DNA from: Chloroflexota bacterium
GTDB lineage: Bacteria; Chloroflexota; Anaerolineae; Aggregatilineales; J027
Assembly (NCBI GenBank): GCA_010092845.1
Contig: JAADYW010000101.1
Location: 1-43,584, forward strand
DNA length: 43,584 bases
Direction: 5' to 3'
In this document: positions 33,695 to 43,576 of the stretch, piece by piece
Position numbering within the stretch: the stretch's first letter is position 1
How the letters are laid out: every line of letters begins with the position of its first letter
Program-made: the position numbers and the translations under genes
Notes under the pieces: model-generated
Told to the model about the DNA's origin: nothing
Seen by the model: only the letters and a program-made list of their open reading frames with translations
Database searches by the model: none

Positions 33695-34186
33695 CTATCC
33701 TGCTTGTAACTGATCGTAAAGCATCTGGAGCGCGGCTTCAGCGCTCACGTGTTTATTTGCCGAGCGATCGCCTTGCCAGACATGCCGTTGGACCATCACC
33801 CTGCCGCGGAAATCCAGCCCGATGTAGGTCAGGCCAACGGGTTTCTCGGCGGTGCCGCCGCCAGGCCCCGCCACACCCGTAATCGAGAGTGCCAGGTGGG
33901 CGCCCAGCAGCGCACGGACACCCCGAGCCATTGCGATAGCGGTCTGTTCACTGACGGCACCGAACTCCACCAGGACATCCTCTTGAACCCCCAGTAGCGC
34001 ATGCTTGACGCCGTTATTATAGGCAACAACGCCGCCCAGGAAATAGGAAGAGCTGCCCGGAACTTCAGTAAATCGGTGCATCAATAGGCCGCCGGTACAG
34101 CTCTCAGCGCAAGTCAGTGTGAGTTGCTGGTCACGTAAGATTTCACCGATGACAACTTCCAGATTGCCTTTGTCAGTAGCGGTCAT
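33695..34186 (-). CDS. pncC: CinA C-terminal domain protein, nicotinamide-nucleotide amidase
   Basis: A 163-residue stand-alone CinA C-terminal domain. The catalytic Ser is in TCAESCTGGLL, followed by VPGSSSYFLGGVVAYNNGVK with the conserved Tyr and Lys, and the ITGVAGPGGGTAEKPVGL signature. This class hydrolyses nicotinamide mononucleotide to nicotinate mononucleotide in NAD recycling. The length is normal for PncC without the COG1058 half. The start overlaps the stop of the glycosidase-like gene by 4 bases (ATGA type), showing coupling in an operon. Confidence 0.93.
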   Translation of the reverse strand: MTATDKGNLEVVIGEILRDQQLTLTCAESCTGGLLMHRFTEVPGSSSYFLGGVVAYNNGVKHALLGVQEDVLVEFGAVSEQTAIAMARGVRALLGAHLALSITGVAGPGGGTAEKPVGLTYIGLDFRGRVMVQRHVWQGDRSANKHVSAEAALQMLYDQLQAG

Positions 34187-35649
34187 CCGAAACGTCTCCC
34201 TACGGCAACGCGTGAATTCAATTGCTGTGCCAGCGTATCCTCTGAATCCACAACGACAATATCTAGCCAGACATTTGGCCAGCGGTGCAGGATACTGGCG
34301 TTAAGCCAGTCTACCATACCAGGCAAGGTTATCGCGGTCACCACTAATGACTTGTCGCCCGGCAGCAGGTCAATATATTCGAGATCGGGCATGAGGGTTG
34401 GTCTGAAGGCATCCCAATATGGTGCGGCAATCTCAAAGAACCAGTCTGTTTCCAGGCCTGGCGTGAGAAAAACGAAATGGAAATCGGCTTCACCATGCAC
34501 CGGCCCAGGCCCTGGTACTTCTTCGGGGACAACTTCGGGCGGGTTTGGCGGCATTAACGCTGGGATCGGCGGGACCTGCTTGTATAACGCAGGATGCCGG
34601 TCGAAGAAATCCGCTACCTGCATAGGACCATGCTGGCCCTGGTAGTACAGGTCGAATTTCCATAATGCGACACCAAAGAACCATGGGGGTGCGGTTGTGG
34701 TGATCCACTCGAACATGGCAATTGTCGCCTTGGCGTGGCTTTCCCAGGTATAGGGCGGATAGCGGTTGTCAGCCTGCGGGCGGTCGCGCGGACCAGCGGG
34801 GACAGGGATGCCGCCTTCGGTGCCGACGACTGGGATTGCACCCACATCAAACAGCGTCTGCAAGCGTTCCATGATCGCGAGGCCTGAACCTAGGAGGCTG
34901 ACGGTGTCGCCATGTGGCGCTAGTTGGGTCCCGCCCCAGACAGTACGCCCCGGGTCATCGTCCTGGCAGATAGGGTCATAGGGGTATTCAAAATGCCAGC
35001 CGCCTTCGGTAAGATTCTGGTATTCTGGAGGGCGGGCACTGCGGGGACCACCCCCGACCTGCTCTTGGTAGAAATGGTTGAACACATAGGGATGGGTTGC
35101 AATATAGCAGCCACCATCCAGGACTGCGCGAAACCGATCAAAGTGGACAGCATGCAGATAGTCGAGCATCCGGGTAATCCAGGTGATGGTGTCTTCACGT
35201 TCACCATTGTTCGCGTCCGCCAATGCCGGAAAGCCAGGATACCCGTCAATGCTTACGATGAACTCGGCCCAGTTAAGCCAGTTGTCCATGAACGGAAACA
35301 ACACATGGTCCTTCTTGGGATCGAAGTCGGCGCCTACGGGCCATTCAACTTCCAGGTTCGGCTCGTTGTAGTATTCGAACCAGCGTACCCCCTCTTTGCG
35401 GTAGGTCTCAAAATACCGCAGTGCTTCGGCGTCGACCGGCGCATTTCCGGGCCTCTCGCGATAAATACGCACGATTGGGGTGATCCCCAGATTCATGGCG
35501 TCCTGTGCCCGGGATTTCTCGCCATCCGCGAGGGCCACGATTTTGGCCCAGCCCATCTGGTCCTGGCGCATGATGTCCATATTCAGATAGTTGATAACGC
35601 TATGCATGCCACGGGGGTTGCGTGACCATTCATATTCATCGAGGTTCAT
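34183..35649 (-). CDS. Clan-A glycosidase-like protein with novel C-terminal domain
   Basis: A 488-residue protein. Residues about 15-358 look like a GH clan-A TIM barrel: a probable acid/base E96 in FEYYNEPNLE, H186 in CYIATHPYVF and a probable nucleophile E278 in VVGTEGGIP, followed by WESHAKATIAMFEW and a GVALWKFD strand. A Pro-rich linker (359-386) joins a C-terminal domain (about 389-488) starting ADFHFVFLTPGLETDWFFE. The same domain is the whole of the next upstream gene. No signal peptide is seen, so a cytoplasmic place or a non-catalytic role is possible. The GH family is not assigned. It lies 21 bases after its neighbour and overlaps pncC by 4 bases. Confidence 0.75.
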   Translation of the reverse strand: MNLDEYEWSRNPRGMHSVINYLNMDIMRQDQMGWAKIVALADGEKSRAQDAMNLGITPIVRIYRERPGNAPVDAEALRYFETYRKEGVRWFEYYNEPNLEVEWPVGADFDPKKDHVLFPFMDNWLNWAEFIVSIDGYPGFPALADANNGEREDTITWITRMLDYLHAVHFDRFRAVLDGGCYIATHPYVFNHFYQEQVGGGPRSARPPEYQNLTEGGWHFEYPYDPICQDDDPGRTVWGGTQLAPHGDTVSLLGSGLAIMERLQTLFDVGAIPVVGTEGGIPVPAGPRDRPQADNRYPPYTWESHAKATIAMFEWITTTAPPWFFGVALWKFDLYYQGQHGPMQVADFFDRHPALYKQVPPIPALMPPNPPEVVPEEVPGPGPVHGEADFHFVFLTPGLETDWFFEIAAPYWDAFRPTLMPDLEYIDLLPGDKSLVVTAITLPGMVDWLNASILHRWPNVWLDIVVVDSEDTLAQQLNSRVAVGRRFG

Positions 35650-35670
35650 TGCGTTTCGCCTGCTACACTA

Positions 35671-36009
35671 TCATTCAATTGGGACACCGAGAGGCTGGCC
35701 GAGTTCGACGCGGACATCTAATGTCAGCGCCAGGTCTTCGAGGTAATCATAAACCAGGGCATCATGAAATGCATTCGGAAAGCGCTGCGTGATGTCTTCT
35801 TTGACCAGAGTGGCTGTGTCTGAGCGCGCCACCGAAGTGATGGTCAACCGGTCCGTGGTGGGTACATACTCAACGATCTCGAGGTTATATAGCACAATTG
35901 GGCGATAGTGCTCCCAGTAGCGGCGTGAGGCCTGGAAGAACCATGCCGCGCTCAAATTCGGGGCGAAGTAGAGAAAATGATAACCTTCAACCAGGTGTTG
36001 CTGAGCCAC
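35671..36009 (-). CDS. 112-residue stand-alone copy of the glycosidase C-terminal domain
   Basis: A 112-residue protein related to residues 389-488 of the next gene. Shared positions run throughout: HF(V/L)(F/Y), then P.L...WFF.....YW...RP, LE......P...L..T, R.PN...D..V.D, LA..L..RV..G. No motif of a known enzyme is seen; the many aromatic residues (WFF, YW) suggest ligand or protein binding. It starts 5 bases after the double-FHA gene, so the FHA protein, this protein and the glycosidase-like protein are surely made together. I do not recognise it as a named family. Confidence 0.82.
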   Translation of the reverse strand: MAQQHLVEGYHFLYFAPNLSAAWFFQASRRYWEHYRPIVLYNLEIVEYVPTTDRLTITSVARSDTATLVKEDITQRFPNAFHDALVYDYLEDLALTLDVRVELGQPLGVPIE

Positions 36010-36014
36010 GATGC

Positions 36015-36704
36015 CTAGCTATCTACATGGAAAATGAAGGAGGTCTCGCCCATCGTGATCGTCATGCCGTCACGGAGCAACACGGGCTGCGTGATGAACT
36101 CGCCTTCAATCATTGTACCATTGGAACTGCCGAGGTCTTCCAGATACCATGAACCACCACGGAAAAACAGTCTGGCGTGTGGCCGCGATACAGCATGATC
36201 TGGCAGCGTAATTTCCCACGATGCATTGCTAACCGCCCGGCCAAACGTCATCGAGTCTTTGCTGATCGCGATCTCAGTGCCCGTTAGCGAGCCAGATATC
36301 ATCCTGATCCGTGTCTTCGCACGATGACCGTCCGCTGCCGCCGTATCGGCCGCGCCCTCAGTTTCAAGAGGTGGGGCTTCATCGGGCAATATGGCTCTGA
36401 ACTCAATCTCGGGCATATAGAGCCGGATGATATCACCGTCAATTAGGGGATAAGGCTCTTCTTTCTTATCATCGTTCACCCAGATACCATTGGCGCTGCC
36501 CGTATCCGAGACGACAAATACCCCGCTCCGGTAGGAAATAGACGCATGATGCCGTGATACCGTCCGCTCGGGGATGTAGATTTCGTTATCAGGACTCCGC
36601 CCAATCGATACTGAGTCTCCCTCTACCAGAACATGTTCTACTGGCTTACCCGTCTCGGGATCGGTCCAGATCACTTTTGCCAGGGCAACTGGATTCTCAT
36701 CCAT
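36015..36704 (-). CDS. Tandem FHA-domain protein
   Basis: About 229 residues with two forkhead-associated phosphothreonine-binding domains. FHA1 has SIGRSPDNEI, the SRHHASI loop and GSANGIWVND; FHA2 has TFGRAVSNASWEI, SRPHARL and GSSNGTMIEG. Both carry the Gly-Arg, Ser-x-x-His and Asn-Gly residues needed for phosphothreonine binding. No membrane or catalytic domain is present. I prefer ATG 36704 over the in-frame ATG at 36731, since conserved sequence begins there, though neither has a strong ribosome site. It heads the operon of the 112-residue, glycosidase-like, PncC and DUF6504 genes. No Ser/Thr kinase is in the window. Confidence 0.9.
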   Translation of the reverse strand: MDENPVALAKVIWTDPETGKPVEHVLVEGDSVSIGRSPDNEIYIPERTVSRHHASISYRSGVFVVSDTGSANGIWVNDDKKEEPYPLIDGDIIRLYMPEIEFRAILPDEAPPLETEGAADTAAADGHRAKTRIRMISGSLTGTEIAISKDSMTFGRAVSNASWEITLPDHAVSRPHARLFFRGGSWYLEDLGSSNGTMIEGEFITQPVLLRDGMTITMGETSFIFHVDS

Positions 36705-36747
36705 AACTACTCTATCGCCAGGTTTCTGCAAGACGCGCTTGAAGAAT

Positions 36748-38795: not shown

Positions 38796-40760
38796 ATGAT
38801 GAACTCTTCAACACTGCGTAACGCCTTCAAACTCTCGAGTCTGCTCGTCATTGCCCTGATCGGTGTGTTGGCCATGAGCTCGGCCATTCTGGCGTCTGAT
38901 CTGGCGGTCAACAGCAAATCACATGCTCAGGAACCGTCAGCTCACCCATCGACCGAGGACGCCCTGATGGCAGCGCGTGTCCCCCCTCGTGACCTGGCCG
39001 ATCTGGCTCAACGGCTGCAGGGCGCGGGCGAATTGCCTGAACCCCCCACGTCTCCGGTGCGTAGCTATCAGAACGGTGACGTTGATACTTTCTGGGTGCA
39101 CAATGACGATCAGGTCATGGAAATTGAAGCGACACTAGTCTATATGAATGATGTGGTCTACATGTGGGTACAGAACGGGTATTCTGTCAATGAGGCCGAT
39201 CTGCGGACTGCTGCCGACCGCTTTGCTACTGAGATCTACCAGCCTGTGCGCGATGTATTCGGTAGCGAGGCCTCACCTGGCGTGGATGGTGACCCGCGCT
39301 TGCATATCCTGCATAGCGTTGATCTTGGCCAGAATGTGGCCGGGTACTTCTATAGCGTGAGTCAGTACCCGCGCGAGGCCATCGCGACCTCCAACGCACG
39401 CGAGATGTTCTTCATCTCGATCAACATGCTGAACTATGGCGTGGAGCCATATTTGTCCGTGCTGGCGCACGAATTCCAGCACATGATTCACTGGGCTGTA
39501 GACGCCAACGAGGAAAACTGGCTTGATGAAGGCGCGGCGGAGCTCTCAGCCTACGTGGCCGGGTTTGGGGTCAGTGGCTTCAGTACGCGTTTTCTGGCCA
39601 ATCCCAATCTGCAACTCAACGACTGGCCTAGCGGCAATACTGGTCCCCACTATGGCGCTTCATTCATGTTCATGGCCTATCTTCTGGAACGATATGGGGT
39701 GGAAACGATCCAGGATCTGGTCGCCAACGCGACCAATGGTATGGAGAGTATCCAGCAGGTTCTGGATTCACGCGGCATCGTCGATCCGATTTCCGGCGAG
39801 CCAATGACCGCTGAAGGGTTATTCAGCGAGTGGTCGATTGCCAACTATCTCAATAACTCTCAGGTATTGGATGGCCGGTACGGCTACCAGAGCCCCGACC
39901 TCCAACGGATCGGCACGGCTACTCCCACCCAGCGCTTCAGCCAGTCACCGGTGTCCCTTAGCGAGGCGATGGTTAGCCAGTGGGGGACGCGCTACTATAT
40001 CCTTGACAGGACCGCCCTGGCCCCGGAAATCCAGCTCCGCTTTGACGGTAGTGATACCGTGGATCTTCTCCCGATGTCGGCCTACAGTGGCCAGTATGCT
40101 TACTGGTCCAACCGCGTCAACTCCAGTGATACACGCCTGACGCGTGAATTTGATCTCAGTGGGGTGGATGCGGCTACGCTGTCCTATCGCACCTGGTACG
40201 ATATTGAGGATGGCTGGGACTACGCTTATGTGATGGTGAGCACGGATAGCGGCGCAACCTGGGACATCTTGCCCACTGACCGCACGACAACCCGTAATCC
40301 GCATGGAACAGCCTATGGGTCCGGCTATACTGGCGCGTCGGGAGAATGGGTGCACGAGACGGTTGATCTATCGACCTATGCCGGGCAAACGGTGCTGGTC
40401 CGCTTCGAGTACATCACTGACGACGCGACGCTGGGTGGCGGTATGCTGATCGACGATGTGTCGATTCCCGAGATCGGCTATTTCGCCGATTTCGAGCAGC
40501 CTGATGCCTCCTGGCAAGCTGAGGGTTGGGTCCTGGTGGATAACGTCCTGGCGCAGCGTTTTGGGCTGCATGTCATTATCTATAACACTGACGGGACGAT
40601 TGACGTTCAGCGTCTGCACCTGGCCGACGACAGGACGTCGGCAAAGTGGAACCTACCGCTAGATGACGAGGTGGATCAGATCGTCGTCGTGGTATCTGGC
40701 TTCGCACCGGCGACGGTCCAGCCAGCGCGATTCGACCTACAAATCGAGGCACTGCCTTAG
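38796..40760 (+). CDS. Secreted HEFQH metalloprotease, M6/M30-like (paralogue 1)
   Basis: A 654-residue exported zinc protease. The N-terminal signal peptide (about 1-33) has a basic start and the hydrophobic stretch LLVIALIGVLAMSSAILA. The active site is LAHEFQHMIH with H225, E226 and H229; the probable third ligand is E245 in NWLDEGAAEL, as in M30 (hyicolysin) and M6 enzymes. Residues about 370-520 form a beta-rich domain ending MLIDDVSIPEIGY, and the C-terminus has the DxExxxxxWxxEGW pattern found at the end of immune inhibitor A-like M6 proteins. No cell-wall anchor is seen, so it is probably released. The next gene is a tandem paralogue 21 bases on. Confidence 0.85.
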   Translation: MMNSSTLRNAFKLSSLLVIALIGVLAMSSAILASDLAVNSKSHAQEPSAHPSTEDALMAARVPPRDLADLAQRLQGAGELPEPPTSPVRSYQNGDVDTFWVHNDDQVMEIEATLVYMNDVVYMWVQNGYSVNEADLRTAADRFATEIYQPVRDVFGSEASPGVDGDPRLHILHSVDLGQNVAGYFYSVSQYPREAIATSNAREMFFISINMLNYGVEPYLSVLAHEFQHMIHWAVDANEENWLDEGAAELSAYVAGFGVSGFSTRFLANPNLQLNDWPSGNTGPHYGASFMFMAYLLERYGVETIQDLVANATNGMESIQQVLDSRGIVDPISGEPMTAEGLFSEWSIANYLNNSQVLDGRYGYQSPDLQRIGTATPTQRFSQSPVSLSEAMVSQWGTRYYILDRTALAPEIQLRFDGSDTVDLLPMSAYSGQYAYWSNRVNSSDTRLTREFDLSGVDAATLSYRTWYDIEDGWDYAYVMVSTDSGATWDILPTDRTTTRNPHGTAYGSGYTGASGEWVHETVDLSTYAGQTVLVRFEYITDDATLGGGMLIDDVSIPEIGYFADFEQPDASWQAEGWVLVDNVLAQRFGLHVIIYNTDGTIDVQRLHLADDRTSAKWNLPLDDEVDQIVVVVSGFAPATVQPARFDLQIEALP

Positions 40761-40781
40761 TTCTCTGAAAGTAGGACCGAC

Positions 40782-42665
40782 ATGACAACCAAGCAGTTCT
40801 GGCATGCGACGAGACTGGTTGTCCTGATTGCTATTATGGGGGCAGTCGCTGTCCCTGGTTTCCTTGTGCAAGCCCAGCCACCAGTCACACCCGAGGATTA
40901 CCTCACCTGGGATGATGCGCCGATAACAACGCCGCTCCGCCATGAAGGCGATGCCCAGGTCCGGTGGGGCTGGGAAACCGCCGAGAAAGCTCTGGGGCCT
41001 TTCAATCAGGAGCCTTTCGAGGTCGGTGACCGGACGACCTTCAATATCTCGTCGGATCTGGATGACTACGAATTCGAACTGCACCATCGCAGCCAGCACG
41101 CCTATTTCTGGTTTGAGGTCGGTACCCATGTCGATCCTGATGTGTTGGAAACAACAGCCGCCCGTTTCGATAGCGAAATCTGGCAGCTCAATCGCTACCT
41201 TTACGGGGAGAATCCGACCCCCGGAATTGACGGAGATCGCCTCATCCATATCGTGCATCTGGAGTCGCCCTGGCCTGGGCTAGCCGGGTATTTCAGCCCG
41301 GATGACCAGTGTGCGCGGTATATCTGTGACGAGAGTAACGAACGGGATGCCATCTACCTGATGCTGGATTATGGCCCAGTCGGAAGCGACCGCTATTTCT
41401 CAACCCTGACCCATGAATTCCAGCATATGATCCAGTTCGAGGTCGATGGCAACGAGTATCGTTGGCTGAATGAAGGGTTTAGCCAGCTCGCTGAGCATTT
41501 GGCTGGCTTTCGGGATGATCCCATCAATAATTCCAATATCCAATCATATCTCAGCCAACCAGATTTGTATTTGAATTCGTGGACCTATGACGGTTACCAA
41601 CAGGGAGCCTATTACGGCGCTGGCTATTTGATGGCGATGTATCTCTATGAACGGTTTGGTGTGGGTTTCATCCGAACCCTGGCGCGCCACCCACTGGATG
41701 GTCTGGCCAGTATTCATGCTGTCCTGAACGTGACAGAGCAGGGGATCGGCATTGACGAATTGATGACAGACTGGTGGATTGCCAATATCGTCGATGACCC
41801 CTATGTCGCTGATGGGCGCTACTACTACCAGACGTTTGATCTCCCGGAGTCCGTCTACACTGAGCGCCTGCTACTTGACGACAGCCGCATGCAGGCCAAA
41901 GGCTTCCTCAAACAGTATGGCGTGCGCTATTTTGAAATCACTGAGTCAGGAACCTATCAGCTATCCTTTGCGGGTAATGAGCTAACATCGCTTACGCCTT
42001 TGGCGCCACATTCCGCGGAGTGGGTCTGGTGGTCAAACAACGCCTCCTCCTCGGTCACATCGATGACGCGAACAGTCGATCTCAGCGATGTCGATCAGGC
42101 GCGTTTTCATTACTGGTTGTACGGTGAAACAGGTCATTTCCCGGGGTACTTGCATCTGCTCGTCTCGACGGATGGCCGCCACTGGCGGTTTCTGGAGAGC
42201 GACACGATGTTGCGCTTCGATCAATACAGTGAGGCACCTGGCCCGCACTACTCCGGGCTGATCAATACCTGGCGTAATGATTCGGTGGATCTGTCGGATT
42301 ATGCCGGCCAGGTCATCCAAATCCGCATTGAATATGTGACCAATAATGCGGTGACAGGTCCGGGTTTCGTCCTGGATGATATGCGGATCCCTGAGATCGG
42401 CTGGTCCGATTCAGTTGAGGAAGGCGCAACCGGCTGGGAGGTGGATGGCTTCTTGCGGACGCCTCAGATGGTCCAGCAGAACTGGGCACTGGCTGTTGTG
42501 AATCGCGGCAAGACACCCCTGGTGCAGAAAATCGATGTTCAGGATGGCGGAGCATCTGCCGAGATCACGGTTGGCAGCGAGGGGGCAATCATCGTGCTGG
42601 GTGCGATGGCCCCATTTACCCAGACCGAAGCCGGCTATAACTTGCTGTTGTCCCCGTTGGACTGA
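40782..42665 (+). CDS. Secreted HEFQH metalloprotease, M6/M30-like (paralogue 2)
   Basis: A 627-residue exported protease related over its full length to the preceding gene. The signal peptide is about residues 1-30, ending near VQAQPPV. The active site is LTHEFQHMIQ with H211, E212 and H215; the probable third ligand is E231 in RWLNEGFSQL. The C-terminal domain again ends VLDDMRIPEIGW, followed by a VEEGATGWEVDGF segment. The pair arose by tandem duplication, and sequence divergence is now considerable, so they may have different substrates. Its last 31 bases overlap the convergent YtxH gene. Confidence 0.85.
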   Translation: MTTKQFWHATRLVVLIAIMGAVAVPGFLVQAQPPVTPEDYLTWDDAPITTPLRHEGDAQVRWGWETAEKALGPFNQEPFEVGDRTTFNISSDLDDYEFELHHRSQHAYFWFEVGTHVDPDVLETTAARFDSEIWQLNRYLYGENPTPGIDGDRLIHIVHLESPWPGLAGYFSPDDQCARYICDESNERDAIYLMLDYGPVGSDRYFSTLTHEFQHMIQFEVDGNEYRWLNEGFSQLAEHLAGFRDDPINNSNIQSYLSQPDLYLNSWTYDGYQQGAYYGAGYLMAMYLYERFGVGFIRTLARHPLDGLASIHAVLNVTEQGIGIDELMTDWWIANIVDDPYVADGRYYYQTFDLPESVYTERLLLDDSRMQAKGFLKQYGVRYFEITESGTYQLSFAGNELTSLTPLAPHSAEWVWWSNNASSSVTSMTRTVDLSDVDQARFHYWLYGETGHFPGYLHLLVSTDGRHWRFLESDTMLRFDQYSEAPGPHYSGLINTWRNDSVDLSDYAGQVIQIRIEYVTNNAVTGPGFVLDDMRIPEIGWSDSVEEGATGWEVDGFLRTPQMVQQNWALAVVNRGKTPLVQKIDVQDGGASAEITVGSEGAIIVLGAMAPFTQTEAGYNLLLSPLD

Positions 42666-42919: not shown

Positions 42920-43576
42920 TTACCCCGATAGTTCCTGAACGAGCTGGCGAAAGGCTCGTTTATAGTCATTGTACATGGCGAAACGCGGACTGCGGCGTAA
43001 TTCGTCAGGCGGCGCGATATCTTCGATCATAGCCACGATTACCGGCTTACGCTGAGCGCGAAAATGCTGCCATGCGGCCTCAACGCTGGGGGTCCTGAGG
43101 GCAAAATCAGACAATACCACGACCATCTTCTTGCATTGATCCAGCGCCGGATGAACGCCGCCCGCCCAGTTGACATCGTCAGTTTTTTCGCCATTATCAA
43201 CCCAGGTTGAGATGCCCACCAGGTTGAGGTCATCGGCCAGTTTTTCGGCGAAATCGGCCTCGGTAGCAGCAGCGACGATATAGGTGGCTGCCTCGACCTT
43301 GATGCGTGCGGCATGCGAATTGCGTTTAATGCCTTTCTGGTCAACAACCTGAATCGCTTCAGGGCGTTTGAGCTGTTCGTGGGCTGCGGTCATGCCCATG
43401 CGGTAAACCGTTGAGCCGCAAATTGGGCAGATCCCGCGTGTGCCGGGGCGCCCCTGGCTGGTCCAGACCGGTGTGGGGTTTTCCATCTCAACCTTTTCCC
43501 GGCAACTGACACAAAAAGCCTCCACGGCGTCTTCGTCTTCCCATTCAGAGTAGACATCAGAATCATAGTCGGTCAT
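42920..43576 (-). CDS. Zinc ribbon (DUF5679) - TIR domain fusion protein
   Basis: A 218-residue protein. Residues 19-62 form a CxxC..CxxC zinc ribbon (C22, C25, C50, C53) with the CVSCREKVEMENP start and GICPICGSTVYRMG end of DUF5679. Residues about 92-215 form a bacterial TIR domain: a YIVAAATEADFAEKLADDL first strand-helix, GISTWVDNGE, KMVVVLSDFAL and KPVIVAMIED. In catalytic TIR_2 domains the segment after the LS motif reads like SPWVxAEW, with Glu as the NADase residue; here it is TPSVEAAW (162-169), so that position appears to be A168, with E166 two residues earlier. It may be a binding TIR or a non-canonical enzyme. Start is 8 bases from the window end. Confidence 0.85.
   Translation of the reverse strand: MTDYDSDVYSEWEDEDAVEAFCVSCREKVEMENPTPVWTSQGRPGTRGICPICGSTVYRMGMTAAHEQLKRPEAIQVVDQKGIKRNSHAARIKVEAATYIVAAATEADFAEKLADDLNLVGISTWVDNGEKTDDVNWAGGVHPALDQCKKMVVVLSDFALRTPSVEAAWQHFRAQRKPVIVAMIEDIAPPDELRRSPRFAMYNDYKRAFRQLVQELSG

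Follow-up and report, generated by a model that had tools for sequence, protein, structure and literature searches.

Why would a bacterium keep, directly upstream of an enzyme gene, a second gene that encodes little more than the enzyme's own C-terminal domain? The question is raised by a 43,584-nt contig of a Chloroflexota bacterium, which in its whole length is called the window here. On its minus strand, a free module gene with a GTG start (35671..36009; 112 amino acids; AlphaFold2 mean pLDDT, 92.4) has a stop codon that ends 21 nt ahead of the start of a gene for a fused protein of 488 amino acids (34183..35649; mean pLDDT, 93.3). Both open reading frames, first described in an earlier note on this DNA, were confirmed, and both proteins have relatives in the order. 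The fused protein consists of a clan GH-A-type barrel (about residues 1 to 365; 34555..35649), a low-confidence, proline-rich linker (about residues 366 to 388; 34486..34554; pLDDT <50 at residues 371 to 376), and a C-terminal module (residues 390 to 488; 34186..34482). The module core of the free copy spans residues 10 to 108 (35686..35982); both cores were delimited by pairwise and profile matches, and profile searches of the window's genome found just these two copies.

The flanking genes lie on the same strand and were named by family matches. The start of a CinA/PncC-family amidohydrolase gene (33695..34186, minus) shares 4 nt with the stop of the fused gene; members of its cluster, in one orientation or the other, occur at 13 of the examined loci. 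On the other side, a gene for a protein with two FHA domains (36015..36731, minus) has a stop codon that lies 5 nt ahead of the free gene, a linkage seen only in the window and in a genome of the same genus, where a related gene takes the same position. The window's neighbors are ordinary chromosomal genes. An origin from a phage or plasmid was considered and rejected, as neither the enzyme nor an outer-relative module sequence (the latter a single-sequence query in the viral scans) had a match in phage records, plasmids, or viral contigs.

The two regions are clearly related. Residues 10 to 108 of the free protein and 390 to 488 of the fused protein align without a gap, with 30/99 positions identical (30%) and 54/99 similar, and their Smith-Waterman score of 167 is far beyond those of 2,000 shuffles (mean, 32; SD, 4.9; maximum, 63). 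AlphaFold models, built on alignments of 44 free relatives and 56 fused relatives, predict a compact alpha/beta fold for both, with the element order strand-helix-strand-helix-strand-helix-strand-helix; the secondary-structure elements of the two models match up once shifted by about 380 residues. On this evidence, the shared ∼100-residue domain proposed in the earlier note is real, and the motifs listed there as common to both copies are present. Neither different folds nor assignment to separate known families, the outcomes named beforehand as speaking against a shared domain, appeared.

The domain had gone unrecognized when it was first read, and sequence databases do not recognize it either: the module, including its carriers and outer relatives, has no match in Pfam 2025 or NCBIfam 20, a PDB sequence search with the module and barrel profiles gave nothing significant, and we found no description of the module in the literature. 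Structure searches with the module return many alpha/beta proteins at Z 5 to 7, none of them distinct, with Argonaute MID, NAD kinase, response-regulator, and Toprim structures among the rows. The best match is a designed Rossmann protein, whose Z of 7.2 is too low to tell kinship apart from a common arrangement. Within the module alignment, H, W, A, Y, T, D, and R residues are near-invariant. The free form has conserved residues of its own, ARRD at the beta3-alpha3 turn, and an extended C terminus that is often rich in proline and threonine.

In enzymes of clan GH-A, the acid/base glutamate, preceded by Asn, is found after strand 4 and the nucleophile glutamate on strand 7. The best structural matches of the barrel are GH39, GH1, GH5, and GH128 enzymes of this clan, at Z 16 to 18 over about 230 to 270 residues; the superposition on 5z3k has a VIA-align Z of 18.2 (3.2 Å over 253 residues), and that on the GH39 enzyme 5jvk has a Z of 17.8. 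The description "glycosidase-like barrel" in the earlier note was correct: the fold is a (beta/alpha)8 barrel, and its glutamates occupy the positions typical of the clan. N95-E96 (motif NEPN) and E278 (motif TEGG) are invariant in 56 sequences, with the strand positions taken from the model. E96, in the NEP motif after strand 4 (35362..35364, minus), is the predicted acid/base, and E278, on strand 7 (34816..34818, minus), is the predicted nucleophile; each is E in 56/56 relatives. Unlike the clan GH-A enzymes, to which it is just 9 to 15% identical, the window enzyme has no Pfam or NCBIfam match in its barrel and adds the C-terminal module. Judged from sequence and model, a clan GH-A-type glycosidase barrel makes up the N-terminal part, and retaining activity is predicted for it.

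One family of the order also has paralogues with acidic linkers of a few hundred residues (L056:7131-9731, L072:4269-6497, and L085:11343-13703), which are kept beside an intact copy. Of four such long-linker paralogues, three have lost the nucleophile to A or T; these three are therefore probably not active as retaining glycosidases and are likely pseudoenzymes.

How closely are the two genes tied to each other? Among 61 related genomes, 30 have both genes, 28 have neither, and 3 have one (33 carriers); all three single-gene carriers are incomplete assemblies (69 to 84% completeness), and the near-complete carriers have both genes without exception (18/18, read from tables). Co-occurrence of the free and fused forms, raised earlier as a point to check, is thus near-obligate (30/61 with both and 28/61 with neither; Fisher p = 6e-14, with kinship ignored). 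That the module gene is almost always kept with the enzyme suggests one working complex. Searched against 84,980 species, the enzyme profile found 73 loci. Nearly all are labeled Anaerolineae or Chloroflexi; three that are labeled otherwise (Pleurocapsa, Bacteroidetes, and KSB1) are taken to be from mislabeled or contaminated bins.

In most genomes, the genes are also closely linked. Across 57 linked pairs, a count in which some genomes appear twice under two locus numbers, a median of 6 nt separates the free gene from the enzyme gene that follows it, and in 13/57 the start touches or overlaps the stop. Adjacency is not required, because about nine genomes have the free and fused genes far apart or on different contigs. 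One genus keeps its free gene away from the enzyme, between a STAS-like gene, whose end it overlaps, and a MoxR-like AAA-ATPase gene that comes after it (L070:7389-9390, with similar arrangements in L075, L084, and L094; the names come from reading the sequences).

We inferred a tree of 143 modules; at 99 columns, its inner branching is uncertain. A single starred clade (99/96) holds every fused copy except one long-branched paralogue; two entries labeled "free" within it are a full-length enzyme (L132_3580) and a contig-edge fragment (L078). The window's free copy belongs to a starred set of 54 free copies and 1 fused copy, the long-branched paralogue, and other free copies fall between the fused clade and this set. 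Copies from different genera cluster by form, free or fused, and the split is therefore ancient: as read from the module sequences, the separation predates the divergence of genera and families, and both forms have been kept. Recent or repeated duplication does not fit this tree. Two copies side by side would be expected from an ordinary recent domain duplication with no special role, yet an explanation of that kind is contradicted by the tree and by the co-occurrence, and we consider it extremely improbable. The proposal in the earlier note that the free copy replaces the fused one is likewise not supported, because near-complete genomes have both or neither and because the forms separated anciently.

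Same-genome pairwise distances of the free and fused modules are correlated (r = 0.72) more strongly than those of either with the barrel (0.59 and 0.55), and a partial r of 0.59 remains (permutation p = 0.0005). This correlation fits a physical partnership and could also stem from similar rates or shared history. The free copy could instead be a regulator that, in competition with the fused module, either keeps the enzyme inactive or sets it free. A separate gene of the same fold, tight linkage, ancient specialization, and the free form's own ARRD turn and extended C terminus would all suit such a role; the near-obligate co-occurrence, however, fits inhibition and partnership alike. Regulation of the fused copy by the free one is possible and comes close to a two-subunit reading, but as an explanation in its own right we judge competitive control to be quite unlikely.

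The module extends well beyond this enzyme. A profile of both forms found it in 51/396 genomes of the class, and broader profiles found it in further Chloroflexota families beyond the class; the module profiles were run within Chloroflexota, and the search beyond the phylum used the enzyme profile only. Profile-profile comparisons connect the window's subfamily to a middle group (E = 2e-25), the middle group to an outer group (E = 4e-21), and the window's subfamily directly to the outer group (E = 1e-9; probability, 96%). The module is found at the C terminus of several distinct GH-A-like barrels (GH5/GH39-like) and at the N terminus of M23 peptidase proteins, with or without SH3b and a barrel; it also occurs twice in tandem in some proteins and is paired with Amidase_2 or LysM in others. 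We conclude from these sequence matches that the module is an uncatalogued, Chloroflexota-wide mobile part. Of the "mobile binding module" suggested previously, mobility stands, with N- or C-terminal positions in many Chloroflexota proteins, and binding is plausible from the partners M23, Amidase_2, SH3b, and LysM.

Other carriers differ in their surroundings and architecture. One genome with the normal pair has, in addition, a module on a different GH-A-like barrel (L054:8131-9567; NEAG and LTEFG motifs). In one outer group, beyond the class, each of seven module-bearing barrel genes (L260, L261, L263 to L266, and L269) has a large TPR-repeat-like gene upstream of it on the same strand. A protein of 1,360 residues (L267:2345-6427) has a barrel-like N-terminal part, three Amidase_2 domains, and a C-terminal module, with no apparent signal peptide.

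Where would such enzymes work? Both window proteins lack a signal peptide, as the earlier note had it. Hydrophobicity of the first 40 residues is low throughout the family, the few exceptions looking like overextended starts, and secreted controls scored in this way exceed 3; a signal-peptide-like N terminus was seen in 0/34 carriers of the middle group. One reading is that the enzyme is cytoplasmic and acts on a soluble or nucleotide-linked sugar, with the module sensing a small ligand. The missing signal peptide, the Rossmann-like architecture of the module, and the CinA/PncC genes near many of the loci all agree with it, but the alignment has no apparent glycine-rich nucleotide-binding motif, and the module's other partners include cell-wall domains; we regard a cytoplasmic role as improbable.

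The same absence of a signal peptide can be read in another way. What the carriers have in common is the module and no signal peptide, whatever the enzyme (M23, amidase, or several barrels), as if the module were a docking or export tag to a common carrier, did not itself bind the wall, and used the free copy as adaptor or chaperone. The genus in which the free copy is found with STAS-like and AAA-ATPase genes rather than with the enzyme would be in line with this. On the other hand, no secretion, export, or phage-tail gene was noticed to recur beside the module, with neighbors judged by sequence clusters. Moreover, the free-standing module was seen in the window's order only; no free copy was found beyond it, and most tagged enzymes would therefore lack an adaptor. 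We consider a docking tag rather unlikely.

The reading that we tentatively favor, at somewhat less than even chances, is that the two genes encode two subunits of one envelope-targeting hydrolase. It builds on the homology, common predicted fold, catalytic glutamates, co-occurrence, linkage, ancient separation, and Chloroflexota-wide module described above. The large subunit would be a retaining clan GH-A-type glycosidase with its C-terminal alpha/beta module, and the small subunit a specialized, separately encoded copy of that module. Association of the modules would provide extra binding sites (avidity) or the correct assembly state for the enzyme, and the complex would be aimed at the cell envelope, much as CTP1L-type endolysins pair an enzyme with a free wall-binding domain. 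Contact between the two proteins, wall binding, the substrate, and a signal-less route to the wall are the parts of this proposal that we infer. Several points count against it: about nine genomes have the two genes apart, the module's structural matches are weak, the correlation of distances has other possible sources, some carriers of the module have no recognized hydrolase domain (L206, L213, and L284), and no signal peptide or dedicated export gene was seen that would account for access to the envelope.

Two-polypeptide endolysins are the known systems closest to such an arrangement. CTP1L, CD27L, Lys170, and LysP7951 likewise have a catalytic domain and a C-terminal domain, in their case a binding domain, plus an extra, free copy of the latter. 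The crystal structure of CTP1L contains the full-length enzyme and the free domain; the latter, produced from an internal start, lies next to its counterpart in the full-length enzyme, and disrupting the contact inactivates the enzyme (PMC4777826). Other two-polypeptide endolysins assemble at 1:3 or 1:5 (PMC9430671), and the published ones need the assembled form for full activity (PMC4777826, PMC9430671). In the endolysins, a single gene yields both forms by way of an internal start, and the free copy is identical to the fused domain, whereas here it comes from a separate paralogous gene with its own start and stop and is about 30% identical. Endolysins are encoded by phages; this pair is found on bacterial chromosomes and has no match in phage records or viral contigs. 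The catalytic domains differ, too, CTP1L having a (beta/alpha)5beta3 barrel with active-site residues Asp-92 and Glu-94 (PMC4777826) and the window enzyme a clan GH-A pair. The CTP1L domain (5a6s) matches the module at Z 5.8 over 79/79 residues, which is not significant alone, as many unrelated alpha/beta folds reach an equal Z. We do not class the pair as an endolysin, because an internal start and phage encoding were both tested and neither was found; by its likely mode of work, it is probably a variant of the two-polypeptide hydrolases.

A second comparison is with the cell wall-binding repeat CWB2 (PF04122). The outermost module relatives share with it a 37-column stretch, VTIIGG..GVS..E..L....G.VERIAG, at a probability of 64% and a score of 30.4, which is a lead only. 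The related A7 alignment scores 28.4 against CWB2, and column-shuffled controls reach a maximum of 14.1. In contrast, the window's own subfamily (A5) has a probability of 0.1%. The CWB2 Pfam model has no hit in the window proteins or the outer relatives, CWB2 is absent from 41 genomes of the order, and in other Chloroflexota its repeats come in tandem.

A still broader picture, which we consider doubtful, is that the module unites a phylum-specific repertoire of signal-less proteins of the wall hydrolase type, in which one order has turned a module-only gene into an obligate glycosidase subunit; the pair would then be a chromosomal, vertically inherited counterpart of the endolysins, with its own route to the envelope. 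The module offers a handle for finding proteins of the glycosidase, peptidase, and amidase types throughout a phylum with few cultured members, and the free/fused pair is a testable case of an accessory domain supplied as a separate, coinherited subunit. It also raises the question of how the signal-less enzymes of this phylum reach the cell wall, if at all.

Elsewhere in the window, two adjacent genes (38796-42665, plus strand) encode proteins of 654 and 627 amino acids with InhA-like MAM domains and strongly hydrophobic, signal-peptide-like N termini, and a further gene (42920-43576, minus strand) encodes a 218-amino-acid protein with DUF5679 and TIR domains.
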